Below, piece after piece: positions 5,538 through 51,306 of a stretch of DNA of 64,000 bases. Position 1 is the first letter of the stretch. The number at the start of each line of letters is the position of its first letter. Origin of the DNA: Devosia sp. A16 (GTDB lineage Bacteria; Pseudomonadota; Alphaproteobacteria; Rhizobiales; Devosiaceae); contig NZ_CP012945.1 of NCBI RefSeq assembly GCF_001402915.1, positions 1,126,001-1,190,000 on the forward strand, written 5' to 3'. A program made the translations under genes and the position numbers. The notes under the pieces were generated by a model. The model saw only the letters and a program-made list of their open reading frames with translations, ran no database searches and was not told the origin of the DNA.

Positions 5538-5586
5538 CGGCTAAACGACATCCGTAATTTTAGGGGCCTGTTCTATCGAAAAAAAC

Positions 5587-6876: not shown

Positions 6877-7128
6877 GCGCTTATTGCCCCTCAGGAAGCG
6901 GCAGCCCGGCCGGGCATGCTGCCGGCGGACCGCAAAGATCAGTTTCGTTTTGCTGCAAGCTGACCCGCGTGGCTTCCCGCAAGGAAGTCCGAGGTAGTTG
7001 CGGATGTCCTTTAGAGCAGTCCTTGTCAGATGACAAATCCCGCTGCGTCGCACCTCTGGAAAACGAGGTTGGTCACACCCATGTTACCGCAACCCAGCGC
7101 GCCAACACGAGAACTTGAGGACTGCAAT

Positions 7129-14419: not shown

Positions 14420-14442
14420 TGTCATCCCAGCGAAAGCTGGGA
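14420..14442. repeat. Left arm of palindromic repeat, split by IS30 copy 2
   Basis: The sequence is identical to the arm at 1371-1393 and is interrupted after the same base. Its TGA (inside GGGATGACA on the minus strand) serves as the stop codon of the transposase. Confidence 0.85.
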
Positions 14443-15429: not shown

Positions 15430-15476
15430 TGCAACATGACCTTAGCAGGCTGTTGCACTTCGTTTGTGAGTCTAAC
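14443..15476 (-). mobile_element. IS30-family insertion sequence, copy 2 (1034 bp)
   Basis: The terminal inverted repeats share GAxTCACA and AAGTGCAACAG, as in copy 1. It is flanked by GGA at 14440-14442 and 15477-15479. Both copies point the same way and sit in the same palindromic repeat type. They form ~1-kb direct repeats bounding a 12-kb segment that includes purA. Confidence 0.87.
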
Positions 15477-15509
15477 GGACCCAACTCACCCCCAGCGCCA
15501 GCCGATAGA

Positions 15510-15536
15510 TGGGTCCCAGCTTTCGCTGGGATGACA
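15510..15536. repeat. Right arm of palindromic repeat flanking IS copy 2
   Basis: This is TGGGTCCCAGCTTTCGCTGG plus GATGACA, identical to 2461-2487. The spacer between the arm and the IS end differs from copy 1, so these are two independent repeat loci rather than one duplicated block. Confidence 0.8.
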
Positions 15537-15580
15537 CCGAGTTGGTGGGACGGGCGGTGCAACCACCAACGATCCACACC

Positions 15581-35840: not shown

Positions 35841-36116
35841 CTAGGGCAGGGCAAATGCATATGGGCACTGACGGTAGTTCGAGTGCCTCCTCCCCTTGTG
35901 GGAGAAGGTGGCCGAAGGCCGGATGAGGGGTTCTCTCCGCGTACTCAATCGCCCTTCGCTGCGCTCAGGTCGCGCTACACTTCGTTGCGCGGACCCCTCA
36001 TCCGCCCTTCGGGCACCTCGCGGCGAGGGCTTTGCCCTCGTCCGCTGACCACAAGGGGAGAAGGCCCTTCGTCCACTGTCAGTGCTCATACGCGATGGCC
36101 CTGCCCTTAAGAGCTG
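35841..36116. repeat. Long nested inverted repeat between xylG and lacI-type gene
   Basis: The outer arms GGGCAGGGC...GCACTGAC (35844-35873) and GTCAGTGC...GCCCTGCCC (36077-36110) are inverted. Inside are CTCCCCTTGTGGGAGAAGG and its inverse CACAAGGGGAGAAGG, with GATGAGGGG/CCCCTCATC. The inner pair recurs at 38726-38882. The 402-bp gap contains no gene. Confidence 0.75.
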
Positions 36117-36130
36117 GCGATAGCATCGCC

Positions 36131-37141
36131 CTACCGCGCCGGCGGGCCCGAACTGGCGCGGACGATCAGCCGCGGCTCGAACAGTTCGACCTCGCCCGAT
36201 GGCGCCGACTTGCTGCGGATTTCCGCCAGCAGCCGGTCGATGGCGCGCTGCGCCATCTGCTCGACCGGCGCCGCCACCACGGTGGGGGGCGGGTTCATGA
36301 TATTGGCGAAGTCGAAATCGTCGATGCCGACGACGGAAATGTCAGCCGGGACCTTGAGCCCCACCTGCTGCACCGCGTTGAGCACGCCCAGCGTCATCAT
36401 GTTGGAAAGCGCGAAAATCGCCGTCGGCGGGTCGGGCTCGCCGAGCAGGCGCAACGTCGACTCGTGCGCGGTGGCCTGGTCGAAGCGGCCGTCGATCAGC
36501 AGCCGCTGCTCCACTGCCAGCCCGTGCGCCGCATGGGCGGCGAAATAGCCGCGCATGCGATCCTCGCCGGTGACGATATTAGGCCGGCCGGTGGTCACCG
36601 CGATGCGCCGGTGCCCCAGCCCGATCAGGTGATCGGTGGCGAGCCGGCCGGCGGTGACGTTGTCGAGCTTGACCACGTCATAGGGCAGCCCGGTGACGAA
36701 GCTGTCGAGCAGCACGGTGGGCACATGGATCTGCTCGGCGAGGCGCGCCCCATGCTCGGCGTCGGAGCGGGTGGGAATGATGATCAGGCCGGCGACGCGC
36801 TGCATGCGCATCATCTCGAGGATCTGCCGCTCGCGATCGTAATCCTCGCTGGTCGAATAGACCGCATCCATGTAGCCGGCCTCGAGGCAGGCCGATTCCA
36901 CCACCTTGGCGACCTTGGCGAAATGCGGGTTGGTGATATCGGGCAGGATCAGCCCGATCAGCCGCGATTGTCCCATCCTGAGGCTGCGCGCCCCGCCATG
37001 CGGCACATAGCCGATCTCGCGCACCGCCGCCTCCACCTTGGCGATCACGTCCTCGCTGACCGGCGCCGAGCGGTTGATCGCCGCCGATGCGGTCGAAATC
37101 GCCACCCCCGCCAGGCGGGCCACATCCTTGATGGTGGCCAA
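36131..37141 (-). CDS. LacI-family transcriptional repressor of the adjacent sugar operon
   Basis: This 336-residue protein starts with TTG at 37141 (LATIKDVARLAGVAISTASA) after GGAGGAGG, the only start that puts the helix-turn-helix at the N-terminus. The sugar-binding body runs to residue 336, with 'RLIGLILPDITNPHFAKVAK' and 'GIDDFDFANIMNPPPTVVAA'. The divergent intergenic region holds two identical CGAAACGTTTCG sites, the classic LacI/GalR half-site pattern. It should repress the importer and glycosidase genes to its right, and itself, until the sugar binds. Confidence 0.92.
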   Translation of the reverse strand: MATIKDVARLAGVAISTASAAINRSAPVSEDVIAKVEAAVREIGYVPHGGARSLRMGQSRLIGLILPDITNPHFAKVAKVVESACLEAGYMDAVYSTSEDYDRERQILEMMRMQRVAGLIIIPTRSDAEHGARLAEQIHVPTVLLDSFVTGLPYDVVKLDNVTAGRLATDHLIGLGHRRIAVTTGRPNIVTGEDRMRGYFAAHAAHGLAVEQRLLIDGRFDQATAHESTLRLLGEPDPPTAIFALSNMMTLGVLNAVQQVGLKVPADISVVGIDDFDFANIMNPPPTVVAAPVEQMAQRAIDRLLAEIRSKSAPSGEVELFEPRLIVRASSGPPAR

Positions 37142-37196
37142 TCGACCCCCTCCTCCAATCGGCCCTCTTGCCAAGAGCGCATCAAAATGCACTATA

Positions 37197-37208
37197 CGAA
37201 ACGTTTCG
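37197..37208. promoter_or_regulatory. LacI-type operator O1 (CGAAACGTTTCG)
   Basis: This perfect 12-bp palindrome lies 56 bp upstream of the lacI-type start and is identical to the site at 37274-37285. The central CG and AAACGTTT are typical of LacI-family operators. Confidence 0.85.
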
Positions 37209-37273
37209 AGTATGCAAATTGCTGCCGCGAAACTGGGGAGCACCCGTTTCGGCGCTTTGCCGGAACCGAAAAA

Positions 37274-37285
37274 CGAAACGTTTCG
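37274..37285. promoter_or_regulatory. LacI-type operator O2 (CGAAACGTTTCG)
   Basis: This is the second identical palindrome, 77 bp centre to centre from O1 and 58 bp before the binding-protein ATG. The spacing of about seven helical turns would allow DNA looping by a tetramer or two dimers. Confidence 0.85.
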
Positions 37286-37342
37286 ACCGAGATATCGGCG
37301 AGACGGCAATGCGCTGGGGACGGCGCCAAGGGAGGATATCCA

Positions 37343-38632
37343 ATGCTTAAGCTTTCACGGCGCAGCCTGCTGCTGTCGTCTGCCGCTCTCGCCGCCGGCG
37401 CCGGTCTCGGGGTCGGGCGCGCCTTCGCCCAGTCGGATGCCACCGCCACCCTGAAGCTGCAGGGCTTTGGCGGCGAGGCGCAACTCGCCGCGATCAACAA
37501 CGCCATCAAGCGCTTCAACGCCAAATACCCCAACGTCACCGTCGAAGTGGAAATGGACGCCATCTCCACCGGCTGGGGCGACTACGTCACCAAGGTGCTG
37601 GGCCAGTTCAACGCCGGCGCCGCCGCCGATGTCTACGGCACCGCCATCGAGACCTTCCAGGCCTTCTCGTCGCGCGGCCTGTGGCTCGGCCTCAACGATT
37701 TCGTCGCCGCCAATACCGGCTTCTCCGATTTCGCGCCGAGCCTGTTCGAGCAGGGTTCCTACAAGGGGGAGATCAACTATGTCCCCATTGGCTGGAACAA
37801 CATCATGATCAACTACAACCGCGACCTGTTCGACAAGGCCGGGGTGGCCTACCCGGCCAATGGCGCCTGGACCTGGGAAGAGTTCCGCGAGGTGGCGAAG
37901 AAACTCACCGTCAAGGACGGCTCGGGCAACGTCACCCAGTTCGGCTACGAGGTGCCCAACCAGAACTTCTTCATCCAGCCGTGGTTCTTCTCGAACGGCA
38001 CCGGCGTCCTCAATGACGACTGGACCGCGTCCAACATGCTCGACCCCAAGGTCGCCGAGTCGCTGCAGTTCCTCTATGACCTGATCCATGTCGACGGCGT
38101 CTCGCCCATTCCGGGCAAGGACACCATGGACAACCAGTTCTTCGCCGGCCAGGTGGCGATGATCAGCCGCGGCCACTGGATCGTCGAGAACGCCAAGGCG
38201 AACAAGCTCAACATGGATATCGCCAAAGTGCCCTCGAAAGAGAGCGACACCACGGTAATCGGCTTCGGCGGCTACGCCATCAACAAGACCACCGCCAATG
38301 CCGATCTCGCCAAGGCGCTGGTCCTCGAGTTGACCAGTGAGGAGACGCAGAAGGAAGAAGGTGAAGGCGGCGGCGGCGTGCCCGGCCGCAAGTCGGCGGC
38401 CTCGACCGAAGCCTTCCTCAGCTTCCCGCCCTCGGCCGCGCTCTACTACGAGACCCTGCCGCACACCAAGGCGGTGCCCTCGCCGGCCAACTTCCAGGAA
38501 GTCGAGAAGATCTTCATCCGCTACTACACCGCGATGATGTCGGGCGAGACCTCGATCGCCGACGGCGTCAAGCAGGCCGATGCCGAGCTCAACGACTCGT
38601 TCGCCCGCCTGAAGCAGCAGATGGGCGGCTGA
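37343..38632 (+). CDS. CUT1 sugar ABC transporter substrate-binding protein
   Basis: This 429-residue binding protein is the first gene of the LacI-controlled operon. The N-terminus 'LSRRSLLLSSAALAAGAGLG' carries two arginines before a hydrophobic stretch, so Tat export is possible as in other rhizobial sugar-binding proteins. The body has the SBP_bac_1 pattern 'NNAIKRFNAKYPNVTVEVEM' and 'AADVYGTAIETFQAFSSRGL'. The ATG at 37343 follows GGGAGGA. It should bind an oligosaccharide or glycoside that GH116 then cleaves. Confidence 0.9.
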   Translation: MLKLSRRSLLLSSAALAAGAGLGVGRAFAQSDATATLKLQGFGGEAQLAAINNAIKRFNAKYPNVTVEVEMDAISTGWGDYVTKVLGQFNAGAAADVYGTAIETFQAFSSRGLWLGLNDFVAANTGFSDFAPSLFEQGSYKGEINYVPIGWNNIMINYNRDLFDKAGVAYPANGAWTWEEFREVAKKLTVKDGSGNVTQFGYEVPNQNFFIQPWFFSNGTGVLNDDWTASNMLDPKVAESLQFLYDLIHVDGVSPIPGKDTMDNQFFAGQVAMISRGHWIVENAKANKLNMDIAKVPSKESDTTVIGFGGYAINKTTANADLAKALVLELTSEETQKEEGEGGGGVPGRKSAASTEAFLSFPPSAALYYETLPHTKAVPSPANFQEVEKIFIRYYTAMMSGETSIADGVKQADAELNDSFARLKQQMGG

Positions 38633-38725
38633 CCGCTCCTCCCCCTCCGTCCGGGCAGCGCCACGAGGCGGGCCCGGACGGGGTTGCGCTGCGCCTGAGC
38701 CGGCCGATGATCTCTCAGTCGGTTT

Positions 38726-38882
38726 GCCTTCTCCCCTTGTGGGAGAAGGTGGCGCGAAGCGCCGGATGAGGGGTCCGCAACCCCTTGGTTGCGCGGCCGG
38801 AGCGAAGCGACGGGCGACACAACACGCGGAGAGAACCCCTCATCCGCCCTTCGGGCACCTTCTCCCACAAGGGGAGAAGGCG
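38726..38882. repeat. Palindromic repeat (CTCCCCTTGTGGGAGAAGG family)
   Basis: The arms CCTTCTCCCCTTGTGGGAG and CTCCCACAAGGGGAGAAGG are inverted, with inner GGATGAGGGG/CCCCTCATCC. It lies in the 272-bp gap before the permease gene and could form a large mRNA hairpin that limits read-through from the binding protein gene. Confidence 0.8.
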
Positions 38883-38904
38883 ACAACTCAAGCATTGGCG
38901 CACC

Positions 38905-39819
38905 ATGCCGACGACCGCAACTGTACCCAGATCCCGCCGCTCCGAACTGGCCCGCGCCCAGGCGCGCACCGGCTACCTGTTCGTGCTGCCGACGGCGGTG
39001 CTCTATCTCACCTTCGTCCTCGCCCCGGTGGTGCTGACCTGCATCCTCGCCTTTGCCTACTACGACCCGATGCTGGGCTCGCGCTGGGTCGGGTTCGACA
39101 ATTTCGCCCGCTTCTTCTCCAATGGGCGCTCGCTGCAGATCCTTTGGAACACGCTGCGCTTCACCTTCTTCGCGGTGACCTTCAACGTCTCGATCGGGCT
39201 GATCCTGGCGCTGGCGCTCAACCGCATGATGCCGAGCTGGCTGCTGTATTTCTTCCGGTTGAGCTTCTTTCTGCCGGTCATCATCGCCGCGGCGTTCGTG
39301 TCGATCGTCTGGACCTATTTCTACGGCGACGACCTGGGCGTGATTAACTACTTCCTCCGCGTCGTCGGGCTGCCCGGCGTACGCTGGCTGACCGACGCCA
39401 ACCAGGCCATGACCTCGATCATCATCATGGACGTCTGGAAGAACACCGGCTTCTTCATGATCATCTTCATCGCCGCGCTGCAGGGCGTGCCCAGGAACAT
39501 CCTCGAGGCCGCGGTGATGGACGGCACGCCCGCCTGGCGGCAGTTCTTCCGCATCACCCTGCCCTACATCTCGCCGGTGGTGTTCTTCTGCATCGTTTAC
39601 GCCTCGATCGGCGCGCTGCAGGTGTTCGAATCCATCGTCATCCTGACCCAGGGCGGCCCTGGCGACTCCACCCGCTCGCTTTCCATCCTCATCGTCGAGG
39701 AGGGCTTCGGCAGCTTCCAGATCGGCTATGCCGCGGCCATCTCGGTGGTGATGACGGTGCTGATCCTGCTGATCACCGCCCTCCAGCAACTGGTGTCGCG
39801 CAAGTGGGTGCAGCAATGA
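38905..39819 (+). CDS. CUT1 sugar ABC transporter permease (MalF-type)
   Basis: This 304-residue permease has six predicted membrane helices and the EAA loop 'NILEAAVMDGTPAWRQFFRI'. The N-terminus MPTTATVPRSRRSELARAQA is basic and cytoplasmic. It forms the channel with the next gene, whose ATG overlaps this stop (ATGA). No good Shine-Dalgarno is visible before the ATG at 38905, which lies close to the palindromic repeat. Confidence 0.9.
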   Translation: MPTTATVPRSRRSELARAQARTGYLFVLPTAVLYLTFVLAPVVLTCILAFAYYDPMLGSRWVGFDNFARFFSNGRSLQILWNTLRFTFFAVTFNVSIGLILALALNRMMPSWLLYFFRLSFFLPVIIAAAFVSIVWTYFYGDDLGVINYFLRVVGLPGVRWLTDANQAMTSIIIMDVWKNTGFFMIIFIAALQGVPRNILEAAVMDGTPAWRQFFRITLPYISPVVFFCIVYASIGALQVFESIVILTQGGPGDSTRSLSILIVEEGFGSFQIGYAAAISVVMTVLILLITALQQLVSRKWVQQ

Positions 39820-40667
39820 GCGCCGTGCTGCAGACCCAAGCCGCCAAGCGCTGGATCGACTGGGCCATCATCGCCTGCATGGTGCTGCTCGCCATCGGCA
39901 TGCTGCTGCCGTTCCTGTGGCTGTTCTCGATGTCGTTCCGCCCGGTGGCCGACGCCTACAAGATGCCGCCCAGCTTCCTGCCGCCGAGCCTCGATTTTTC
40001 CAACTACCTCGCCGTGCTCAACTCCAAGGTGCCGTTCGTCCGCATCTACATGAACTCGGTGCTGATTGCGCTTCTCGTGACGGTTGGCCAGATGGTCACC
40101 TGCACGCTCGCCGCCTTCGCCTTCTCGCGGCTCAACTTCCGCGGCCGCGACGCGCTGTTCTTCATTCTCCTGGTCGGGCTGATGTTCCCCGCGCAGGTGA
40201 CGATCCTGCCGATCTATCTCGGCTATGCGCGGGTCGGGCTGCTCAACCAGCCGGTCGGGCTGGCGCTGATGTACCTGACCTCCAGCTTCGGGGTGTTCCT
40301 GATGCGGCAGTTCATGCTCAGCCAGCCCAAGGCGCTGGAAGAGGCGGCGCTGATGGATGGCGCCGGCTACCTCAAGATCTTCTGGCGCATCTCGCTGCCG
40401 CAGCTGAGGCCCGCGCTCTCGGCGCTCGGCATCATCACCTTCACCCAGACCTGGAACTACTACTTCCAGGCCAAGGTGCTGCTCGGCAAGCAGGACCAGA
40501 TGACCCTGCCGCTCGCCATGGATGTGCTGCGCGGCTACATGGGCGCCGGCAACCTGTCGGTGGTCATGGCCGCCATGAGCATGTCGATCCTGCCGGTGGT
40601 GCTGCTCTTCCTCCTCGCCCAGAAATTCGTGATCGAAGGCATCACGATGAGCGGCATCAAGAACTGA
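39816..40667 (+). CDS. CUT1 sugar ABC transporter permease (MalG-type)
   Basis: This 283-residue permease has six membrane helices and the EAA loop 'ALEEAALMDGAGYLKIFWRI', ending 'VIEGITMSGIKN' as in most MalG-type proteins. It is coupled to the first permease by a 4-base overlap. The pair uses the ATPase at 43459. Confidence 0.92.
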   Translation: MSAVLQTQAAKRWIDWAIIACMVLLAIGMLLPFLWLFSMSFRPVADAYKMPPSFLPPSLDFSNYLAVLNSKVPFVRIYMNSVLIALLVTVGQMVTCTLAAFAFSRLNFRGRDALFFILLVGLMFPAQVTILPIYLGYARVGLLNQPVGLALMYLTSSFGVFLMRQFMLSQPKALEEAALMDGAGYLKIFWRISLPQLRPALSALGIITFTQTWNYYFQAKVLLGKQDQMTLPLAMDVLRGYMGAGNLSVVMAAMSMSILPVVLLFLLAQKFVIEGITMSGIKN

Positions 40668-40876: not shown

Positions 40877-43459
40877 ATGTGGGACGATCTCGCCTCCATC
40901 GAGCCGCGCTTTCACTATGCCGGCGAACGCTCCCGCTACATTGCCTTTCCGCTCGGCGGCATCGGGTCGGGCGGGTTGTCGATCTCGGGCAGCGGCCGGC
41001 TGATCGACTGGTCGATCCGCAACCGGCCGGCGCTGCAGGGCTATAACGGCTACTCGCATTTCGCCATCAAGGCCGAAAAGGATGGCGCGCTGCTCGATGC
41101 GCGGGTGCTCAACGGGCCCTACGATCTCAACCCCTCGGGCGCGCCGGGCCTGCGCAAGATGTTCGATGGCTTCGGCCATGGCGCCAACCGGCAGACGCTG
41201 GCCGGCGTGCCGCATTTCAAGTCGGTCGAGTTCTACGGTCGCTTCCCCACTGCCGACCTGGTGTTCGCCGATCCGCATTTCCCCGGCCAGGTGCGGCTGA
41301 CGGCGCTGTCGCCGTTCATCCCGCACAATGACCGCGACAGCTCGATGCCGGTGGCGATGTTCGAGTTCGAGATCGTCAACCCGACGGCCGACGCGCTCAC
41401 CTACACGCTGGCCGGCACGCTGGGCAATTACGGCTCCAACAGCGGCCGGCACAGCTTCACCCAGTCGGACGGCATCTCATCGCTGCACCTCACCTCGACC
41501 GATACCGAGCTGCCCGAGACCGACCGCGGCGACCTCACCATCGCCACCGACGCCGACGATGTCGACCATACCGACCACCATTATCGCGGCCAGTGGTTCG
41601 ACGACCTGGCGGTCTACTGGAAGGAGTTCGCCCGCCCCGGCCGGCTGCCCAAGCGCCACTACGACCAGCCGCGCACCAGTCGGCACATGAGCCTGCAACC
41701 CGAACACGCGACGCTCGGCGCCCGCATCACGGTACCGGCCGGCGGCCGCAAGCGGGTCCGTTTCGTCATCTCCTGGAGCTTCCCCAAGGGCGATATCTAC
41801 TGGGCCTTCCGGCCCAAGCCCGATGGGGTGATCCCGGATCGGCCGACCCCGAGCTGGACCAACTACTACGCCACCCAATGGGCGAACTCGACCGCCAGCG
41901 CCACCGAGGCGCTCAAACGCTGGGACAGCCTTGCCGCTGCCACCGTGGCCTTCCGCGACGGCCTGTTCGGCACCACGCTGCCCCCCGAGGTCAAGGACGC
42001 AGCCTCGTCGACGCTCGCGCTGCTCCGCACCGCCACGGTGATCCGGCTCGAGCAGGGCGAGCTCTGGGCGTGGGAAGGCCAGCACATCAATGACGGCTCC
42101 TGCGAGGGCTCGTGCACCCATGTGTGGAACTACCAGCAGGCGCTGGCGCATCTGTTCCCGGCGATCGAGCGGACGCTGCGCGAGACCGAACTCAGCTACA
42201 ACATGCTGCCATCGGGCGGCCTGACCTTCCGCCAGAAACTGCCGCTCGGTTCGAGCTTCGACATTATCGGCCCCTGCGCCGACGGGCATTTCGGCGCCAT
42301 CATCAAGACCTTCCGCGACTGGAAGCTCTCGGGCGACAGCGATTGGCTCCGTCGCTACTGGCCGCAGGTGAAGCGGGCCATCGAATATGCCTGGTCGCCG
42401 GAGAACCCCGACCGCTGGGACCCTGACGAGACCGGCATTCTCTCGGGCCGCCAGCACCAGACGCTCGACATGGAGCTGTTCGAGCCCAATTCCTGGCTCG
42501 CCTCGATGTATGTGGCGGCTCTGCTCGCCACCGCCGAGATGGCGAGGGCGATGGGCGACAACGCACTTGCGGACAAGGCCGCCCGGCTCGGCAAGGCCGG
42601 CGCCGATTACATCAACACCGAGCTCTTCAACGGCCGCTGGTTCATCCAGAAGATCGACCTCGGCGACAAATCCGTGCTCACCCCGTTCGATGTCGGCCGC
42701 GCCGCCGGTGTCTTGGCCGACGGCTTCATGGAAACCTACTGGTCCGACGAGTTCAGCGAGCTGAAATACCAGATGGGCGAAGGCTGCATCTCCGACCAGG
42801 TGCTTGGGCTGTGGCACGCCGAAGTCGCGGGGCTCGGTGCCTTCCTCGATCCCGCCAAGGTGGAAACCGCGCTTCGCTCGGTGCATCGCAACAACTTCAA
42901 GCCGAGCCTCGAGCAGCACTTCAACCCGGGCCGCAACTACGCCTACGAGGACGAGGCGGGGCTGTTGATCGCCACCTACCCCGAGGGCATCCGCCAGCCG
43001 ATGGTCGCGGCGCCCTACGCCGAGGAAGTGTGGACCGGCATCGAATACATGTCGGCTTCGCACATGATCATGCACGGGCTGATCGAGGAAGGCCTGGACG
43101 TGGTCCGCGCCGCCCGCAACCGCCATGACGGCAGTCGCCGCAACCCGTGGAACGACATCGAATGCGGCTCCTACTATGCCCGCTCGATGTCGGCCTGGCA
43201 GCTGGTCAACGCCTTCTCCGGCCTCTCCGCCGATTTCGTCAGCGGCCGCGTCAGCTTCGCGCCCAAGCTGACGGGCGACTGCGAACTGTTCTGGTCGGCC
43301 GGCAACGGCTTCGGCCGGCTGAGCCGCAGCAACGGTCGGCTGCGTTTGAGCGTGCTGGGCGGCACCCTTGCGGCAAAGGAACTCGCGGTCGATGGCGTGT
43401 CCCATGGCCCCGTCAGCCTCGACGCCGGCGAAAGCCTCGAACTGGGAGCGGCAGCGTAA
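40877..43459 (+). CDS. GH116-family glycosidase (GBA2/DUF608-like)
   Basis: This 860-residue cytoplasmic enzyme is related to bile-acid beta-glucosidase (GBA2) and to bacterial/archaeal GH116 beta-glucosidases and xylosidases. The N-terminal beta-sandwich domain begins 'YIAFPLGGIGSGGLSISGSG'. The (alpha/alpha)6 barrel carries the conserved 'CEGSCTHVWNYQQA' with Glu410, the nucleophile candidate by position. 'QTLDMELFEPNSW' with Asp531 is the acid/base candidate. There is no signal peptide, so it acts on glycosides brought in by the same operon's importer. It lies between the permeases and the ATPase gene, which it overlaps by one base. Confidence 0.87.
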   Translation: MWDDLASIEPRFHYAGERSRYIAFPLGGIGSGGLSISGSGRLIDWSIRNRPALQGYNGYSHFAIKAEKDGALLDARVLNGPYDLNPSGAPGLRKMFDGFGHGANRQTLAGVPHFKSVEFYGRFPTADLVFADPHFPGQVRLTALSPFIPHNDRDSSMPVAMFEFEIVNPTADALTYTLAGTLGNYGSNSGRHSFTQSDGISSLHLTSTDTELPETDRGDLTIATDADDVDHTDHHYRGQWFDDLAVYWKEFARPGRLPKRHYDQPRTSRHMSLQPEHATLGARITVPAGGRKRVRFVISWSFPKGDIYWAFRPKPDGVIPDRPTPSWTNYYATQWANSTASATEALKRWDSLAAATVAFRDGLFGTTLPPEVKDAASSTLALLRTATVIRLEQGELWAWEGQHINDGSCEGSCTHVWNYQQALAHLFPAIERTLRETELSYNMLPSGGLTFRQKLPLGSSFDIIGPCADGHFGAIIKTFRDWKLSGDSDWLRRYWPQVKRAIEYAWSPENPDRWDPDETGILSGRQHQTLDMELFEPNSWLASMYVAALLATAEMARAMGDNALADKAARLGKAGADYINTELFNGRWFIQKIDLGDKSVLTPFDVGRAAGVLADGFMETYWSDEFSELKYQMGEGCISDQVLGLWHAEVAGLGAFLDPAKVETALRSVHRNNFKPSLEQHFNPGRNYAYEDEAGLLIATYPEGIRQPMVAAPYAEEVWTGIEYMSASHMIMHGLIEEGLDVVRAARNRHDGSRRNPWNDIECGSYYARSMSAWQLVNAFSGLSADFVSGRVSFAPKLTGDCELFWSAGNGFGRLSRSNGRLRLSVLGGTLAAKELAVDGVSHGPVSLDAGESLELGAAA

Positions 43460-44550
43460 TGGCCGGCATCCAGCTCAAGTCCGTCCGCAAGAGTTTTCAG
43501 GGTTTCGAGGTCATCCACGGCATCGACCTCGAGATCGCCGATGGCTCGTTCACGGTGTTCGTCGGCCCTTCCGGCTGCGGCAAGTCGACCTTGCTGCGGA
43601 TGATGGCCGGGCTCGAGGAAATCACCGCCGGTGAGGTCCATATCGACGGGGTACGCTGCGACCACCTGCTGCCGGCGGCGCGGGGCTTCGCCATGGTGTT
43701 CCAGTCCTATGCGCTCTACCCGCATATGAGCGTCGAGCAGAACCTCAGGTTCGGGCTCGAAAACCAGAAGCTCGAAAAGCGCGAGATCGCGGCGCGGGTG
43801 CAGAAGGCCGCCGGCATCCTGCAGATCGAGCATCTGCTGGCGCGCCGGCCCAGCCAGCTCTCGGGCGGCCAGAGCCAGCGCGTCGCCATCGGCCGCGCCA
43901 TCGTCAAGGAACCCAAGGCCTTCCTGTTCGACGAGCCGCTCAGCAATCTCGACGCCGAACTCAGGGTGAAGATGCGCGGCGAGCTGATCAGCCTGCATCA
44001 GCGGCTGGGCTCGACCATGATCTACGTCACCCACGACCAGGTCGAGGCGATGACCATGGCCGACCGCATCGTGGTGCTCAACCAAGGCCAGATCGAGCAG
44101 GTCGGCACTCCGGTCGAGCTCTATGCCCGGCCGCGTAACCGCTTCGTCGCCGGCTTCCTCGGCGCGCCGCCGATGAACATGCTGGCCGGCACGGTCACTG
44201 GCGGTGGCGTGCTGCTGGAGGGCGGCACACTGGTGCCGCTGCCCGGTCGCACGGTCCCGCTCGCCGAGGGCGCTCCGGTGACCCTGGGCATCCGCCCCGA
44301 GCATGTCGAAGTCCGCCCCGGCCCGCTCAAGCTCGCCGTGGCAACCACCGAGGTGCTGGGCTCCGAAACCATTGTCCACGCCACCACCGGCTCTGGCGCC
44401 CCCTTCACCGTCGCACTGCGGGGCATCAGCGGCGTCAAGGCCGGCGACAGCCTCGAGGTCGACCTCCCCGCCGCCTTCATCCACCTGTTTGACGAGGCCG
44501 GCACCACGATCGGCGCCACCGAGGACTGGCGGGCCGCGTATCTGACGTGA
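43459..44550 (+). CDS. Sugar ABC transporter ATP-binding protein (MsmK/UgpC-type)
   Basis: This 363-residue ATPase has Walker A GPSGCGKST, signature LSGGQSQRVAIGRA, Walker B FLFDEPLSNLD and switch His in VTHDQVEAM. The C-terminal TOBE domain (about 245-363, 'LGIRPEHVEV') identifies the CUT1 sugar class. The ATG overlaps the glycosidase stop (TAATG). The neighbouring operon (44775-48930) has permeases and a binding protein but no ATPase, so this protein may serve both. Confidence 0.92.
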   Translation: MAGIQLKSVRKSFQGFEVIHGIDLEIADGSFTVFVGPSGCGKSTLLRMMAGLEEITAGEVHIDGVRCDHLLPAARGFAMVFQSYALYPHMSVEQNLRFGLENQKLEKREIAARVQKAAGILQIEHLLARRPSQLSGGQSQRVAIGRAIVKEPKAFLFDEPLSNLDAELRVKMRGELISLHQRLGSTMIYVTHDQVEAMTMADRIVVLNQGQIEQVGTPVELYARPRNRFVAGFLGAPPMNMLAGTVTGGGVLLEGGTLVPLPGRTVPLAEGAPVTLGIRPEHVEVRPGPLKLAVATTEVLGSETIVHATTGSGAPFTVALRGISGVKAGDSLEVDLPAAFIHLFDEAGTTIGATEDWRAAYLT

Positions 44551-44774: not shown

Positions 44775-45602
44775 TCACCCCTTGGTCGAGCCGCCCGCCA
44801 TGCCGTCGATGAAATGCCGCTGCAGCAGCACGAACAGCATCAGGATCGGCACCACGATGATCACCGCGGCGGCCATGATCTCACCCCAGTCGCTGGAATA
44901 TTGCCCGCTGAGCAGGGTGAACGCCACCACCGCGGTCATCTCACCCTTGGCCTGCAGGAACGTCGAGGCGATGAGGAACTCGTTCCAGCAATAGAGCCCG
45001 ATGATCAGCGCCACGGTGAGGAGGCCCGGTGAGACGATCGGCAGCATCACCCTTGAGAACAACTGCCACTGGTTGGTGCCGTCGAGCGAGGCGGCTTCCT
45101 CAAGCTCCTTGGGGATGGCGATGAAATAGGTGCGCAGCAGCATGATGGCGAACGGGCTGAACATGGCGCAGTAGATGAACGACACCGCGATCGGATTGTT
45201 GATCCACCCCGCCCGGGCAAAGCCGAAATAGAGCGGGAACAGGAACAGTTGGATCGGCGCCGTCGTGGTGGCGAGGAAATAGGCGCTGACCGATTTCCAG
45301 CGCTTGATCTTCTGCCGCGCCAGCACATAGGCGGCGCCCGAGGCCGTGGTCAGCACGAGGACGATGGTCATTGCCGTGACCTTGGCCGAGTTCAGCATCG
45401 TCTCACCCAGCCGCGCATCCGACCAGGCCCGGGTGAAGTTCGACCAGTCGAGCTCGTTAGGCAGGCTGAGCGGACTGGTGATGATCTGAGGCGTCGGCTT
45501 GAAGGCGTTGAGCAGCATCAGCAGCAGCGGCCCCAGCGCCAGCGCCAGGCCGAGCGTCAGGATCAGGTAGGTCAGGACACGCGAGATGCGGCTGGACATC
45601 AT
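44775..45602 (-). CDS. CUT1 sugar ABC transporter permease 2 (MalG-type)
   Basis: This 275-residue permease begins MMSSRISRVLTYLILTLGLA and has six membrane helices. The EAA loop is 'PKELEEAASLDGTNQWQLFS'. The start overlaps the upstream permease stop by one base (TGATG). It is the last gene of the second LacI-led sugar operon and partners the gene at 45602. Confidence 0.9.
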   Translation of the reverse strand: MMSSRISRVLTYLILTLGLALALGPLLLMLLNAFKPTPQIITSPLSLPNELDWSNFTRAWSDARLGETMLNSAKVTAMTIVLVLTTASGAAYVLARQKIKRWKSVSAYFLATTTAPIQLFLFPLYFGFARAGWINNPIAVSFIYCAMFSPFAIMLLRTYFIAIPKELEEAASLDGTNQWQLFSRVMLPIVSPGLLTVALIIGLYCWNEFLIASTFLQAKGEMTAVVAFTLLSGQYSSDWGEIMAAAVIIVVPILMLFVLLQRHFIDGMAGGSTKG

Positions 45603-46444
45603 CAGTTGGCTCCCTCGCGCGCCTGCAGCCGCACATAGGCGAAGGTGGCGGTGAGGCCGAACAGCGCGATGACCAGCGCCACCGCCGCCGCCCGGCCGAG
45701 GTCGAACTCGAAGAAGGCGTTGCGATAGGCCAGCGTCGACAGCACTTCGCTCGAATAGGCCGGGCCGCCCTGCGTGAGGATGTAGACGAAGTCGAACACC
45801 AGGAACGACCAGATCACCGTCATCACCATCATCAGCTTGATGGTCGGGGCGATGGCTGGGATCAGGATGTGGCGCAGCAAGCCGAAGAAGCCGGCGCCGT
45901 CGAGCCGCGCCGCTTCCACCATTTCCTGCGGCACCTGGCGGAGCGCCGCAAGGAAGATCACCGCGAGGAACCCCCACCAGTGCCAGAGGTCGACCGCCGC
46001 GATGCCGTATAGCGCCGTCTCGGTGTGAGCCAGGGGGTCCGCCAGTTCGATGCCGAAGCGCTGCAGCAGGCCGAACACCCCGGTATTCGGGTTGTAGATC
46101 ATCCCCTGCCAGACCCGCGCGGTGATCGCCGTCGCCACCACCACGGGCATGAAATAGACGATTTGGAACAGCGTGCGGCCGCGGTGGATGAGCAGCAGCA
46201 GCGTTGCCGCGAACAAGCCGATGGCGATCGGCACGGTCAGGAAGATCAGCGTCCACTTGATGTTGTTGCCGAGCGCGATCCAGAACACGCGGTCGGCGAA
46301 CACGGCGTTGAAATTCGCCAGCCCCACGAACACCGGCATCGACAAGCCATCCCACTGGCAGAACGCCAGGGCGATGGTGAGCAGCGCCGGGATCAGGATG
46401 ATCACGACGTTGATCGAGAGCGCGGGGAGAGCAAACAGCCACAT
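45602..46444 (-). CDS. CUT1 sugar ABC transporter permease 1 (MalF-type)
   Basis: This 280-residue permease has six helices and the EAA loop 'VPQEMVEAARLDGAGFFGLL'. It has a very short cytoplasmic N-terminus (MWLFALPALSINVVII), shorter than most MalF-type proteins. A start outside the visible ATG is possible, but I see none better. It lies 96 bp after the binding-protein gene, with a palindromic hairpin in the gap. Confidence 0.9.
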   Translation of the reverse strand: MWLFALPALSINVVIILIPALLTIALAFCQWDGLSMPVFVGLANFNAVFADRVFWIALGNNIKWTLIFLTVPIAIGLFAATLLLLIHRGRTLFQIVYFMPVVVATAITARVWQGMIYNPNTGVFGLLQRFGIELADPLAHTETALYGIAAVDLWHWWGFLAVIFLAALRQVPQEMVEAARLDGAGFFGLLRHILIPAIAPTIKLMMVMTVIWSFLVFDFVYILTQGGPAYSSEVLSTLAYRNAFFEFDLGRAAAVALVIALFGLTATFAYVRLQAREGAN

Positions 46445-46540: not shown

Positions 46541-47851
46541 TCACGGCAGCGGCGGCACGCTGCCTTCGGCCAGCTCGCCGGCGAAGATCTCCTGCAGCCC
46601 GGCAAGGAACTGCTCCGGCGTCGCCTTGTTGAGCCACAGCTCCTCGACGCCCGAGATGATGTACTGCTCGGATCTGGGCGGCCAGAACGTCCAGGTGGTG
46701 TAGCCATAGCTGCCATCCGCGATGGCGTCGGCGATCATCGTCGTCGCCTCCTTGTACAGCGGCGTCACCTCGCCCTGCATGGCAATGCCGGAAAGGTCCG
46801 CCAGCGGCACGTTCCACTCACCCTGCCACTGCGGCACGACGGCGCCGTAGAAATCGCCGCTGAAAATGTAGTCGATCACCTGTGCCGCGGCATCCGGGTT
46901 GGCCGACTTGGCGTTGATCGACAGGGCCGAACCCACCCCGATCGGGAACAGCGGATAGGGCACGCCTTCGGCCACCGGAATGGAGGTGAAGGCGGCATTG
47001 GCGCCTGCGGGGTCGAAATAGTCCTTCACCCACGAGAACGCCCAGGTGCCCTGCGGCGCCATGCCGGTCTTGCCGGTGACCATGCCGGCGAAGGCGTCGA
47101 TGGTCGAGGTCGAGAAATAGTCCTTGCCGTAATAGCCCTTGTCGTACCAGGCCTTGAACCTGGTCATCGCCTCGACGAACACCGGATCGGTCCATGGCCG
47201 GGTGCCGGCTAGCGCCTCGCGGATGGCGGCCGGCCCGGCCAGCTGGTTGAGCGCGACGGTGAAGAACTGCTCGTTGGCCGGGCGGAAACCGGCATTGCCG
47301 GCGACGAACGGCGTCATCCCCTCGGCCAGCATGGTGTCGGCCAGGGCTTCCATCTCGGCCACCGTCTTGGGCGCCGTCCAGCCCTTCGCGGCGAAGATGT
47401 CGGCGTTGTAGAACAACCCCATCGCCTCGTAGTTCTTGGGGATGGAGTAAAGCACGCCATCGACCTTGCCGAGGCTGAGGAACATCGGGATCAGCCGCTT
47501 GTCCCAGCCGAGCTTGGCGGCATAGTCGTCGAGCGCCAGCAACTGGCCGGCCTTGGCGGTGGCCAGCGCCGTCGCCGGACCGTTGGAGTTGATGATGTCC
47601 GGGCCACCGCCCGACATCAGCGCCAGGCGCTGCTGGTTCTCCACCGCGTTACCGCGATATTCGAGCTCGAGCGTCACCCCCGGGTGGCTGGCGGCAAAGC
47701 CGCCCACCAGCTTGTCGTCGAGCAGCTTCTGCTGCTCCGGCGTCAGCGCCTCGTACCACCACGAGACGGTCTGGGCCATCGCCTGGCCCGACGCCATGAG
47801 GGTCATGGCTGCGAACGCCACTCCCGAAAGTGAGCGAGTAAATTTGGTCAT
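46541..47851 (-). CDS. CUT1 sugar ABC transporter substrate-binding protein 2
   Basis: This 436-residue periplasmic protein has a signal peptide (MTKFTRSLSGVAFAAMTLMA, cleavage near 'AMAQ'). The SBP_bac_1 body has 'QTVSWWYEALTPEQQKLLDD', 'MSGGGPDIINSNGPATAL' and many aromatic residues in the C-terminal half, as is usual for carbohydrate binding. Its ATG overlaps the stop of the LacI gene (ATGA), so regulator and binding protein are coupled. The ligand is unknown. Confidence 0.9.
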   Translation of the reverse strand: MTKFTRSLSGVAFAAMTLMASGQAMAQTVSWWYEALTPEQQKLLDDKLVGGFAASHPGVTLELEYRGNAVENQQRLALMSGGGPDIINSNGPATALATAKAGQLLALDDYAAKLGWDKRLIPMFLSLGKVDGVLYSIPKNYEAMGLFYNADIFAAKGWTAPKTVAEMEALADTMLAEGMTPFVAGNAGFRPANEQFFTVALNQLAGPAAIREALAGTRPWTDPVFVEAMTRFKAWYDKGYYGKDYFSTSTIDAFAGMVTGKTGMAPQGTWAFSWVKDYFDPAGANAAFTSIPVAEGVPYPLFPIGVGSALSINAKSANPDAAAQVIDYIFSGDFYGAVVPQWQGEWNVPLADLSGIAMQGEVTPLYKEATTMIADAIADGSYGYTTWTFWPPRSEQYIISGVEELWLNKATPEQFLAGLQEIFAGELAEGSVPPLP

Positions 47852-48930
47852 GCTGCGTTCCCTGCTGAATTCAACTGTCTGGTGTTGTCCGAGACCTCAG
47901 GCGGCGGAGCCGTCGAGGCGCGGGCAACGATCGAAAACGGCAGGGCGACGGCCTCTCCCGGCCCGTCCACCTCGCCGCGAATACGGGCCAGCAGCCGTTC
48001 GCCGGCCAACTGGCCGAACAACTCCTGCCCCAAAGCCACCGTCGTGAGCGACGGGTTGAGCACATCGGTCATCGACAGGTTGTTGAACCCGGTGATCGAC
48101 ATGTCGCGCGGCAGCACGAGGCCGGCCGATTGGCAGGCGCGGATGGCGCCGCAGGCCAGCAGGTCGTCGGCGCACATGATGGCGCTCGGCCGCTCGCCGT
48201 CGGCGAGCAGGCGCGCCGCGCCGGCGGCGCCGCCATCGATCGAATAGCTGTCGACAGTGACGACACGCGGCGTAAGCCTCGCGGCTGCGAGCGCCGCGCT
48301 GTAGCCCGTGATACGCGCCCGCTCCGGCCCGCCCGGCGATGCCATGAAGACGATGCGCCGGTGCCCCTGCCCCACCAGTTGCGAGGCCAGCTCGAACGCC
48401 ACCTGCTGGTTGTCGACGTAGAAATCGTCGATGGCGAGCGGGCCGCCGCGCTTGGGCGCCGACTCGTAGCGCACCACCGGGATATCTCCGCCCAGCACGT
48501 CGCCCAGTTCACGCGCCGTAGTGACGAAGAACACTCCGACAATGCCGGCGACCCGGCGATCGAGGCAGAGGTTGAGGCTGCCGCGTTCGGAACTCCCCAG
48601 CCCGTCGGTACTGAGCGCGATCACATCGTACCCGGCCGGCTCCACCACCTTCTGCACCGCGCGGATCAGCGGCGGATAGAACGGATTGGACAGATCGGGC
48701 ACGATGCAGGCGATCATCATCGTGCGGTTGGTTTTCAGCGCCTGCGCCATGCGATTGGGCACATAGTTCAGGGCTGCGGCGCTCTGCCGGATCCGTTCCT
48801 GCACCGCCGGACTGATGCCGACGCCATCGCCCGACAGCACCGACGACACCGCCGCCTGCGACACCCCGGCATGGGTGGCCACATCTTTCTGGGTCGGCTG
48901 GCGCTGGCTCGATTTCATCCCGGAATTCAC
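47848..48930 (-). CDS. LacI-family regulator, first gene of the second sugar operon
   Basis: This 360-residue regulator has the helix-turn-helix 'PTQKDVATHAGVSQAAVSSV', a departure from the common T-I-K-D start, and 'NYVPNRMAQALK' as hinge helix. The ligand domain follows, with 'IACIVPDLSNPFYPPLIRAV' and 'SITGFNNLSMTDVLNPSLTT'. The GTG at 48930 has AAGG at good spacing; the ATG at 48918 is the alternative. It leads the importer operon and so probably regulates itself. The palindrome at 48951-48968, just upstream, is its likely operator and also covers the divergent ADP-ribosylglycohydrolase-like gene. Confidence 0.9.
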   Translation of the reverse strand: MNSGMKSSQRQPTQKDVATHAGVSQAAVSSVLSGDGVGISPAVQERIRQSAAALNYVPNRMAQALKTNRTMMIACIVPDLSNPFYPPLIRAVQKVVEPAGYDVIALSTDGLGSSERGSLNLCLDRRVAGIVGVFFVTTARELGDVLGGDIPVVRYESAPKRGGPLAIDDFYVDNQQVAFELASQLVGQGHRRIVFMASPGGPERARITGYSAALAAARLTPRVVTVDSYSIDGGAAGAARLLADGERPSAIMCADDLLACGAIRACQSAGLVLPRDMSITGFNNLSMTDVLNPSLTTVALGQELFGQLAGERLLARIRGEVDGPGEAVALPFSIVARASTAPPPEVSDNTRQLNSAGNAA

Positions 48931-48950: not shown

Positions 48951-48968
48951 TACTGATACGTATCAGTA
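48951..48968. promoter_or_regulatory. 18-bp perfect palindromic operator TACTGATACGTATCAGTA
   Basis: It lies between the divergent LacI-type gene and the DraG-like gene, with a further half-site ATCAGTA at 48974-48980. The size, symmetry and central CG fit a LacI-family operator. Confidence 0.85.
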
Positions 48969-49052
48969 GCGATATCAGTATGAAGGATGATCGATCCCGT
49001 CAAGCGGGTGCCGATCGAACTTGAAACGACCCGCATCGTGATCGGAACCGCC

Positions 49053-51146
49053 ATGGCCCTGCCCCCCAATACGCTCGAACACATCTATGCCGGCGTGCTC
49101 GGCAAGCTGATCGGGGTCTATCTCGGCCGACCGTTCGAGAACTGGACCTATCAGCGCATCATGCGCGAGCTGGGGCCGATCACCTACTATGTCAACGAGC
49201 AGTTGGGCGCGCAGCTGGTGGTCACCGACGACGATGTGTCGGGCACCTTCAGCTTCGTGCGGGCGCTGGAGGATCACGTCTGCTCAAGCGAGCTGAGCTC
49301 GGCGGATATCGGCCGCACCTGGCTCAACTACGTGGTCGAGAACCGCGCCGTGTTCTGGTGGGGTGGCGCCGGCAACTCCACCGAGCACACGGCCTGGTTG
49401 AACCTCGCCAAAGGCATCCCGGCGCCGGCTTCCGGCGCGATCGCCACCAACGGCAAGACCGTTGCCGAACAGATCGGCGCCCAGATCTTCATCGATGGCT
49501 GGGCTCTGGTCGCCCCGGGGAACCCGGCGCTGGCCGCAAAACTGGCCCGCGCCGCCGGCAGTGTCAGCCACGACGGCGAAAGCGTGCATGCCGCGGTGTT
49601 GTGGGCGGCGATGGAAGCCGAAGCCTTCGTCAGCCGAGATGTTCAGCACCTCATCGACACCGGCCTCTCCTACATTCCCGCTGACAGCCTGATCGCCAGG
49701 CTGGTGGCCGATATCCGCGGCTGGGTCGCCGCCAATGGCGATGACTGGCAGGCCACCCGTCAGCAGATCGAGGACAGCTACGGCTACGACAAATACCCCG
49801 GCGTCTGCCACGTGGTGCCGAACCACGCCCTGATGATCATGGCGCTGCTGCACGCGCCCGACGATTTCAGCCGCGGCCAGACGATCGTCAATACCTCGGG
49901 CTGGGATACCGACTGCAATGCCGGCAATCTGGGGTGCCTGCACGGCATCATGCTCGGGCTCGCGGGGCTCGAAGGCGGGCCGGACTGGCGCGGCCCGGTC
50001 GCCGATCGGCTCTATCTCTCCACCGCCGATGGCGGACGGGGGGTCGGCGACGCCGCCGCAGTGACGCTCTGGCTGGCGGGGCTTGCCCATCGCCTCGCCG
50101 GCTTGCCCGAGCCGCAGCCGCCCAAGGACGGCGCGCAGTTCCATTTCGCCCTGCCCGGCTCGGTGCAGGGCTTCATGGCCGGCGGCTCAGAGCGGGACTG
50201 TGCCGATGTCGTGGTCTCGGGCACCGGCTCGGCCCTGGCGGTCGACCTGGTGTCGATGACCTCGGGCCGCTCCGCCTATGTCGGTACACCCGTCTTCACC
50301 CCGCCCGCGATGATCGGGCATAGCTGGTACGAAGTGCTGGCGACGCCGCGCGTCTGGCCGGGGCAGACGCTCGAGGCGAGGATCAGCGCCGAAGCGAACC
50401 TCTCGGGCAGCGTCGAAGTGGCGCTGGCCATCCGCCACTATGGCGAGGGCGATAGCTTGGTCACCCTTGTCGCTCCCGAGAGCGCGACGCTCGAAGCCGG
50501 CGGCAGCGCCGCCCTGTCCTGGCGCCTGCCGCAGCTCGACGGCAACCCGATCGCCGAGGTCGGCTTCGTCATGTCGGTGCGCGACCAGGCCACGGTAGGC
50601 CGCGTCCTCCTCGACTGGATGCGCTGGGACGGCGAGCCCGAGCTGGTGCTGAAGCGCCCGCACAACGAGGGCAGCATGTGGCGCAGCGCCTGGATCAACG
50701 GCGCCAGCGTCTTCTCCAAGAACTTCAAGGAGTCGTTCCGCATCTCCGGCAATCGCGGCGAAGGCGTCATCCTCACCGGCACAAGGCAATGGGCCGACTA
50801 CCGGCTCGACGCCACGCTGAACCTGCACCTTGGGGATTATGGCGCCGTGTTGGTGCGGGCCGAAGGCTTGCGCCGCTACTACGCGGTGCGGCTCGGCCGC
50901 AACGGCAAGCTGCAGATCGTGCGCCGCCGCGACGAGATCGAAACGGTGCTCGCCGAAACGCCGCTGCCGGTGGCCTTCGAAACCCCGATCGAACTCCGCA
51001 TCACCGCCTTGGGCCGGCAGCTCACCGGTGAGGCTGCCGGGACGAGGCTGGAAGCCGAGGATGCCACCTATCGCAGCGGCATGATCGGCCTCGCCGTGTT
51101 CGAAGGCGCGCTGTCGACGGACCGGATCCACGTCACGCCGGCTTAG
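49053..51146 (+). CDS. ADP-ribosylglycohydrolase-like protein with C-terminal beta-sandwich domain
   Basis: This 697-residue protein has two parts. Residues ~1-345 form the all-helical ADP-ribosylglycohydrolase (DraG) fold, with its metal-binding signatures TDDD at 58-61 and DTDCN from 285. Two aspartates plus a Thr in each would bind Mg2+ or Mn2+. After a beta-rich linker, residues ~545-697 resemble a concanavalin/LamG-like domain ('ADYRLDATLNLHLGDYGAVL'). There is no signal peptide. It is divergent from a LacI-led sugar importer and shares its operator, so it likely cleaves an N- or O-glycoside imported by that system rather than removing ADP-ribose from protein. An in-frame ATG at 48987 is the alternative start. 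Confidence 0.85.
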   Translation: MALPPNTLEHIYAGVLGKLIGVYLGRPFENWTYQRIMRELGPITYYVNEQLGAQLVVTDDDVSGTFSFVRALEDHVCSSELSSADIGRTWLNYVVENRAVFWWGGAGNSTEHTAWLNLAKGIPAPASGAIATNGKTVAEQIGAQIFIDGWALVAPGNPALAAKLARAAGSVSHDGESVHAAVLWAAMEAEAFVSRDVQHLIDTGLSYIPADSLIARLVADIRGWVAANGDDWQATRQQIEDSYGYDKYPGVCHVVPNHALMIMALLHAPDDFSRGQTIVNTSGWDTDCNAGNLGCLHGIMLGLAGLEGGPDWRGPVADRLYLSTADGGRGVGDAAAVTLWLAGLAHRLAGLPEPQPPKDGAQFHFALPGSVQGFMAGGSERDCADVVVSGTGSALAVDLVSMTSGRSAYVGTPVFTPPAMIGHSWYEVLATPRVWPGQTLEARISAEANLSGSVEVALAIRHYGEGDSLVTLVAPESATLEAGGSAALSWRLPQLDGNPIAEVGFVMSVRDQATVGRVLLDWMRWDGEPELVLKRPHNEGSMWRSAWINGASVFSKNFKESFRISGNRGEGVILTGTRQWADYRLDATLNLHLGDYGAVLVRAEGLRRYYAVRLGRNGKLQIVRRRDEIETVLAETPLPVAFETPIELRITALGRQLTGEAAGTRLEAEDATYRSGMIGLAVFEGALSTDRIHVTPA

Positions 51147-51169: not shown

Positions 51170-51284
51170 CTGACCCCCACCCCTGTCCCCTCCCCCTAAA
51201 CAAGGGGAGGGAGACCCTCACACAGGCATCGCAGTCAGCGTCTCCCTCCCCTTGTTAGGGGAGGGATCAAGGTGGGGGTCAGCC
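51170..51284. repeat. Palindromic repeat between DraG-like gene and nrdB
   Basis: The arms CCCCCACCCCTGTCCCCTCC and its degenerate inverse (GAGGGATCAAGGTGGGGGTC) contain inner CCCCTAAACAAGGGGAGGGA and TCCCTCCCCTTGTTAGGGG. It lies between convergent genes. Confidence 0.75.
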
Positions 51285-51306
51285 CGCACCGGCTTCGGCG
51301 CCCACC

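Follow-up and report, generated by a model that had tools for sequence, protein, structure and literature searches.

A DraG-fold protein fused to two β-sandwiches in a LacI-regulated sugar-import locus of Devosia sp. A16: a candidate furanosidase

The DNA stretch analyzed here (the window) comprises 64,000 nucleotides of the Devosia sp. A16 genome. It includes a gene that the current annotation (PGAP) names only "ADP-ribosylglycohydrolase family protein", a name that steers readers to protein modification or to the control of nitrogenase. The gene lies, divergently oriented, next to a LacI-family regulator and a sugar ABC importer. What role might a protein of this family play in a sugar-import locus? 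A reading of the window made from the sequence alone (the sequence-only reading) had proposed a DraG-fold glycosidase for small sugars or nucleosides. This appears to be still the best reading, and the neighboring genes of relatives would narrow it to furanosides; what it overlooked is a Cys-for-Thr replacement in the metal site, as well as four paralogues in the same genome.

Domain organization and metal site of the fusion protein

The reading frame is open from 48987 to 51146 (+) and could encode up to 719 amino acids. As the structural model leaves residues 1–21 disordered (pLDDT about 30), and almost every relative starts somewhere in residues 23–30 of the window numbering, the ATG at 49053 rather than the codon at 48987 is probably the start. 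Residues are counted from 48987 throughout. On direct reading, no export signal or signal peptide is apparent at the N-terminus; a cytoplasmic location is therefore expected, which fits an action after import.

Pfam finds a single family in the protein, PF03747 (ADP_ribosyl_GH; residues 36–328, E = 2.4e-50, 172.3 bits against a curated cut-off of 26.2), which is also matched by all 64 relatives (64/64), and NCBIfam yields no match. When used as a single-sequence query against PDB sequences the protein retrieved nothing useful, and its sequence profile retrieved CBM66 as the only match. An AlphaFold2 model built on the alignment of the 64 relatives (mean pLDDT 90.9, pTM 0.91) displays the all-helical DraG/ARH fold in residues 26–371, the best PDB match of this predicted structure being ARH3 6hh3 (Z 31.7, rmsd 3.1 Å, 306 residues), with MJ1187 1t5j (Z 31.6) and DraG (Z 30.1) close to it. 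The earlier proposal of a concanavalin-type C-terminal domain of about 150 residues was borne out by structure prediction: residues 554–719 resemble levanase CBM66 both by profile (E = 2e-5 against PDB sequences) and by fold (4azz, Z 22.2, rmsd 1.8 Å, 153 of 165 residues). What had been missed is a second, middle sandwich, predicted by itself with a pLDDT of 88.2. Its best structural matches are CBM22 4xup and 4xuo (Z about 14, at most 14.1, at 10% identity), and its best match among PDB sequences is no better than E 0.02. The fusion has, therefore, three domains and not the two first seen (Table 1). Carbohydrate-module folds are unusual on a presumed intracellular enzyme. The C-terminal part of some relatives gives weak Pfam matches to a galactocerebrosidase lectin domain (13/64) or to 3-keto-disaccharide hydrolase (6/64); as these fit the same concanavalin-type fold, the interpretation of the domain as a 3-keto-disaccharide hydrolase was rejected.

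Table 1. Coordinates of the features of the fusion locus (window positions; residues counted from 48987)
Feature	Position	Strand	Basis or remark
18-bp perfect palindrome, presumed LacI-family operator	48951..48968		between divergent lacI and fusion
LacI-family regulator	47848..48930	-	Pfam LacI and Peripla_BP_3
DraG-fold/β-sandwich fusion gene	49053..51146	+	ORF open from 48987; likely start ATG 49053, ~697 aa
Catalytic DraG/ARH-fold domain, residues 26-371	49062..50099	+	PF03747; structure matches
E51, motif equivalent of the conserved ARH glutamate	49137..49139	+	invariant in 64 + 23 sequences
T80-D81-D82-D83, predicted metal site (ARH3 T76-D77-D78 plus an extra invariant Asp)	49224..49235	+	alignment; PMC8141533 Table 2
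D307-T308-D309-C310-N311, predicted metal site; C310 in place of ARH3 Thr317	49905..49919	+	alignment; PMC8141533 Table 2
Middle β-sandwich, residues ~376-553, CBM22/CBM4-like jelly roll	50112..50645	+	structure prediction
C-terminal CBM66-like concanavalin-type sandwich, residues 554-719	50646..51143	+	profile and structure
Sugar ABC importer, solute-binding protein (SBP_bac_1)	46541..47851	-	Pfam; same protein group in relatives' operons
Sugar ABC importer, permease A	45602..46444	-	BPD_transp_1
Sugar ABC importer, permease B	44775..45605	-	BPD_transp_1
MalK/UgpC-type ATPase of the adjacent GH116 cluster	43450..44550	+	Pfam/NCBIfam; ATPase directly downstream of fusion in relatives

The metal motifs had been described as kept. 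TDDD and DTDCN are indeed present, invariant or nearly so among the 64 relatives, but they depart from the motif common to ARH1 and ARH3, E...[T/S]DDT...D[T/S]D[T/S] (PMC6309922): where the consensus would give TDDT and DTDT, the final Thr is replaced by Asp in the first motif and by Cys in the second. In human ARH3, MgA is bound by Thr76, Asp77, Asp78 and Asp316, and MgB by Asp314, Asp316 and Thr317 together with the ribose 3''-OH (PMC8141533 Table 2), the metal centre as a whole binding the ribose 2''- and 3''-OH (PMC8141533). Judged by motif, C310 would occupy the place of Thr317, a magnesium ligand, and D83 would be an additional acid; a thiolate ligand suggests that Mn2+, Fe2+ or Zn2+ may be used instead of Mg2+. 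E51, D81–83, D307, D309, C310, N311, G164 and H195 do not vary among 64 A-type relatives, nor among 23 sequences of mixed type that include the other two fusion types (B and C), and E51, DDD and WDTDCN make up a signature of the fusion group's own. The invariance of Cys310 argues that this residue is selected. The acid of the canonical GDALG motif is Val (V44) in the fusion. As the solo DraG proteins of sister operons retain the textbook motifs (GDA.G, TDDT and DTDS), the altered site marks the fusion group and not sugar loci generally. G164 and H195, aligned by eye, are at plausible positions for the Gly and His that contact pyrophosphate in ARHs, which thus seem to be retained; a phosphate-bearing substrate is therefore possible.

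Operator, importer operon and distribution

The 18-bp operator proposed between the fusion gene and the lacI/importer genes stands as a perfect palindrome, TACTGATACGTATCAGTA, the longest perfect one in the window. Even if one mismatch is allowed, the 12-bp core of this palindrome has no other occurrence in the 5.03-Mb genome. With up to two mismatches it is found upstream of lacI in 43 of 53 related loci (drawn from the best 80 of at least 570 relatives), against 0.6% in shuffled control sequence, and some of the misses are loci in which another LacI-type gene was taken. The motif is also present in Citrobacter and Chloroflexota loci. As the core is unique in the genome and recurs in related loci, the regulator looks dedicated to the fusion operon, and TACTGATACGTATCAGTA is presumed to be an operator common to the divergent lacI/importer and fusion transcripts. 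An origin of the palindrome by chance was rejected on account of this uniqueness and conservation.

A scan of GTDB species genomes yielded at least 570 relatives, the best 80 of which align with almost the full query, a single incomplete contig excepted. Among these best 80 of at least 570, the genes found near the fusion encode a binding protein (about 59 loci), permease A (55), LacI (53), an ATPase (50, in 43 immediately downstream) and permease B (46), the usual order being LacI, binding protein, two permeases, fusion, ATPase. The sequence-only reading had staked its proposal beforehand on a conserved link to sugar importers, and this link holds. The fusion is often the sole enzyme of the operon, as in many rhizobia (LacI, SBP, permease A, permease B, fusion, ATPase). 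The window carries a divergent version, with regulator, SBP_bac_1 protein, two BPD permeases and operator, without an ATPase of its own; for this reason, the UgpC-type ATPase of the neighboring cluster is its probable partner. That cluster comprises a GH116 gene (40877–43459, +), its own importer genes (36032–40667) and the ATPase gene, and it borders on the fusion operon. Pleomorphomonas (L096, L097) likewise has a GH116 cluster beside the fusion operon. Taking into account this adjacency in both genera, the ATPase or the substrate may be common to the two systems.

The fusion gene is patchily distributed, occurring in 22 of 101 close relatives, and is rare in unbiased samples, with 2 carriers among 385 genomes of the class and 2 among 398 of the phylum, strain A16 itself being counted in each. 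The Citrobacter copy has no DNA match in any E. coli genome. In Citrobacter, Huaxiibacter and Enterobacter (L102, L105, L112, L136), lacI, fusion and binding-protein genes are flanked by chiP on one side and glnS-nagE on the other, and the listed neighborhood contains no permease. An 867-aa ORF (5080–7680 of locus L110, −) adjoins an Enterobacter fusion and matches neither a Pfam family (at E 1e-6) nor an NCBIfam one.

The genome of strain A16 encodes five PF03747 proteins, the fusion and four paralogues. Three types of fusion are cleanly apart in the tree: A, to which the gene described here belongs, B, found as two fusions in one locus, and C, paired with a solo DraG protein. One locus of this genome (L036, 2169–16279) contains two fusions with a LacI/ABC importer, a nucleoside hydrolase, a PNP-family phosphorylase, a PfkB kinase and a SIS-domain protein, a gene content repeated in L044 (155–14014); these loci look like pathways for the catabolism of an unusual nucleoside. 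In another (L037, 8097–13839), a LacI/ABC operon encodes a solo DraG protein, a fusion, a CoA-transferase III and a CitE-like lyase. Such a pairing of a canonical solo DraG with a fusion, in the company of these two enzymes, characterizes the C-type operons (L037, L045–L055 and L139), and it suggests that an organic acid is freed from the imported glycoside.

Candidate substrate and alternative readings

As the little-studied fusions supply sugar-import operons with their principal or sole enzyme, this protein most likely cuts imported five-membered-ring sugars for food, modified proteins not being its target. We propose, with a probability of roughly 0.55, that the fusion is a cytoplasmic metal-dependent furanosidase, with ribose as first choice, releasing D-ribose most likely from imported ribosides; fructose or arabinose would come second. 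Once the LacI-family repressor leaves the 18-bp operator, the fusion and the carbohydrate ABC importer would be made together, and a small riboside or other furanoside would be taken up. The two metals would then hold the sugar hydroxyls while E51 acts as general acid/base, as proposed for ARH3 (PMC6309922). A part in catalysis or in holding the substrate is presumed for the β-sandwiches, which may act as a lid on the pocket or bind the aglycone. The bond cleaved would be that of a furanoside, most likely an α-D-ribofuranoside by analogy with characterized ARHs, and the ribose (or other furanose) would reach central metabolism via a kinase. Tentatively, the fusions may even constitute an unrecognized metal-dependent glycoside hydrolase family, in which DraG-fold (α-ribo)furanosidases with an invariant Cys in the second metal site and two pocket-shaping intracellular sandwiches act alone or at the center of a furanoside-import pathway that is widespread, if patchily so, among Pseudomonadota, Chloroflexota, Deinococcota and Bacillota.

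The furanose ring is the theme shared by the fusion's neighbors. A ribokinase-type PfkB gene lies within the fusion operon in L099 (TIGR02152, 215 bits; 4-bp overlap with the ATPase gene) and in L090 (284.7 bits), the cut-off of TIGR02152 being 299.65 bits. A ribokinase named by PGAP directly precedes the fusion in Deinococcus aetherius (L137) and follows the ATPase gene in an Agrobacterium C-type operon (L140). These four loci are on separate tree branches, and a rough estimate based on strain A16, whose 5.03-Mb genome has six TIGR02152-like genes, puts the number of such neighbors expected by chance well under one. In the Devosia genome itself, a ribokinase above the NCBIfam cut-off is encoded away from the fusion gene. 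If one sugar has to be named, ribose is the best choice, given that it is bound by known ARHs and that ribokinase genes turn up repeatedly; it draws on few cases, as ribokinase appears in only 4 of about 107 loci examined. A nucleoside hydrolase is found near the fusion in L124 and a GH127 gene in L133.

Other neighbors speak for furanoses different from ribose, and it is conceivable, though rather unlikely, that the fusion cleaves fructo- or arabinofuranosides (for instance α-fructofuranosyl disaccharides or difructose anhydrides) instead of ribosides, the CBM66-like module holding the terminal furanose. GH172, a family of α-D-fructofuranosidases and α-D-arabinofuranosidases (PMC8605356), is encoded inside the fusion operon in L042 (4-bp overlap with the fusion start) and L109, and in divergent or neighboring position in L066 and L119; in L127 the fusion is accompanied by ribulokinase, L-arabinose isomerase (AraA) and GH51. 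The first known ligand of CBM66 is the terminal fructose of fructans, but xanthan is bound as well (PMC11002231), so that likeness to CBM66 is no proof of fructose and does not decide the sugar. Against such substrates stands, besides the ribokinase on four separate branches, the geometry of the site: the metals of ARHs bind the ribose 2''- and 3''-OH (PMC8141533), and trans diols would fit less well. In arabinofuranose and fructofuranose, the diols corresponding to these two hydroxyls are trans.

A substrate outside the furanosides, such as a pyranoside, an N-glycoside, a modified nucleoside or an organic-acid conjugate, would require the DraG fold to have been repurposed further, and we consider this improbable. 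It would accommodate the GH116 gene adjoining the fusion in Devosia and Pleomorphomonas, which argues against a furanosidase in the window itself, GH116 being a β-glucosidase-type family, and likewise the GH31 and GH35/GH42-type genes near single fusion copies. The C-type CoA-transferase and CitE-like lyase, which a plain ribosidase leaves unaccounted for, would point to an acid aglycone. However, the metal-site acids are fully retained, the pyranosidase neighbors are mostly singletons, and all ARH/DraG enzymes known to us act on ribofuranosides.

The annotated name and the fold, with membership in PF03747, would also agree with a genuine (ADP-ribosyl)hydrolase of proteins, by which the importer or some other protein of the cell would be controlled in the way that DraG controls nitrogenase reductase. 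This is very unlikely in view of the departures from the ARH consensus (TDDD, DTDC), the two appended carbohydrate-module folds, the sugar regulator with its one target, the importer adjacent across several phyla and the fact that no ADP-ribosyltransferase was recognized among the annotated neighbors. The same departures at the metal site, i.e., Cys in place of the Thr317-equivalent ligand and V44 for the GDALG acid, might instead betray a catalytically dead sugar sensor or scaffold of DraG fold. We regard this as the least credible interpretation, as it would leave many operons without any enzyme, and neither the metal-binding acids nor the catalytic Glu vary from phylum to phylum.

Relation to known systems and further features of the window

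The proposed furanosidase shares with ARH3, ARH1 and DraG the fold (Z about 28–32), the conserved Glu and the two-metal Asp-Asp and Asp-x-Asp arrangement, at 14–20% identity; it differs from them by TDDD for TDDT, Cys for the Thr/Ser ligand of MgB, V for D in GDALG, EQIGAQIF at the place of CGAAM[R/Y] in solo members, two extra β-sandwiches and the importer operon. The C-type sister operons contain solo PF03747 proteins (the C6 group, and also L125 and L130) that belong to the same family and to the same kind of LacI/importer operon; in contrast to the fusions, they are canonical (GDA.G/TDDT/D[TC]DS), about 400 aa long and devoid of sandwiches, and are about 20% identical to the fusion's catalytic domain. 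The C-terminal fold is that of the CBM66 of Bacillus subtilis levanase SacC (4azz, 4b1l, 4b1m), which is carried by a secreted GH32 enzyme, whereas the fusion's module is on a presumed intracellular one. GH172, GH51, GH127 and inosine-uridine nucleoside hydrolases, the furanoside enzymes beside the fusion, are unrelated to it in fold and mechanism.

E. coli yegTUV and ribose loci of Bacteroides may be similar leads. In staphylococci, a published cassette (PMC3637587) joins genes for an ADP-ribosylglycohydrolase, a permease and a ribokinase, and no functional test of it was found in the literature searched. By analogy, this DraG-family gene with permease and ribokinase would follow the same catabolic logic as the fusion operon and may be considered a precedent for the ribose link; it differs by a solo protein of about 330 aa (from gene length), a nucleobase-type permease and the lack of LacI and ABC importer. 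The literature searched contains no paper that assigns the proposed function, or that deals with the fusion or with glycosidase activity in PF03747 sugar loci. A catabolic link of the DraG family has thus been hinted at before, and the fusion, its altered metal site, the operator and the operon appear undescribed in the searchable literature. The evidence moves the fusion group toward carbon catabolism, offering candidate substrates, the Cys-for-Thr change at MgB and a regulator with its exact operator. Should hydrolysis prove true, a new glycoside hydrolase family would be founded, the DraG-fold gene in sugar operons of rhizobia, Devosia and enterobacteria would be explained, and a relation between the de-ADP-ribosylation fold and an enzyme for food would be revealed.

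Two further features of the window were recorded. A GC-rich inverted repeat (cccctccccctaaacaagggg / ccccttgttaggggaggg, about 51170–51285), between the fusion gene and the gene for the small subunit of ribonucleotide reductase, might represent either a terminator or a dispersed repeat. Two IS-like direct repeats (1371–2498 and 14420–15547), 97.6% identical over 1.13 kb, have terminal inverted repeats and transposase-like ORFs (1401–2381 and 14422–15429, −), and bracket about 12 kb in what looks like the fashion of a composite transposon.
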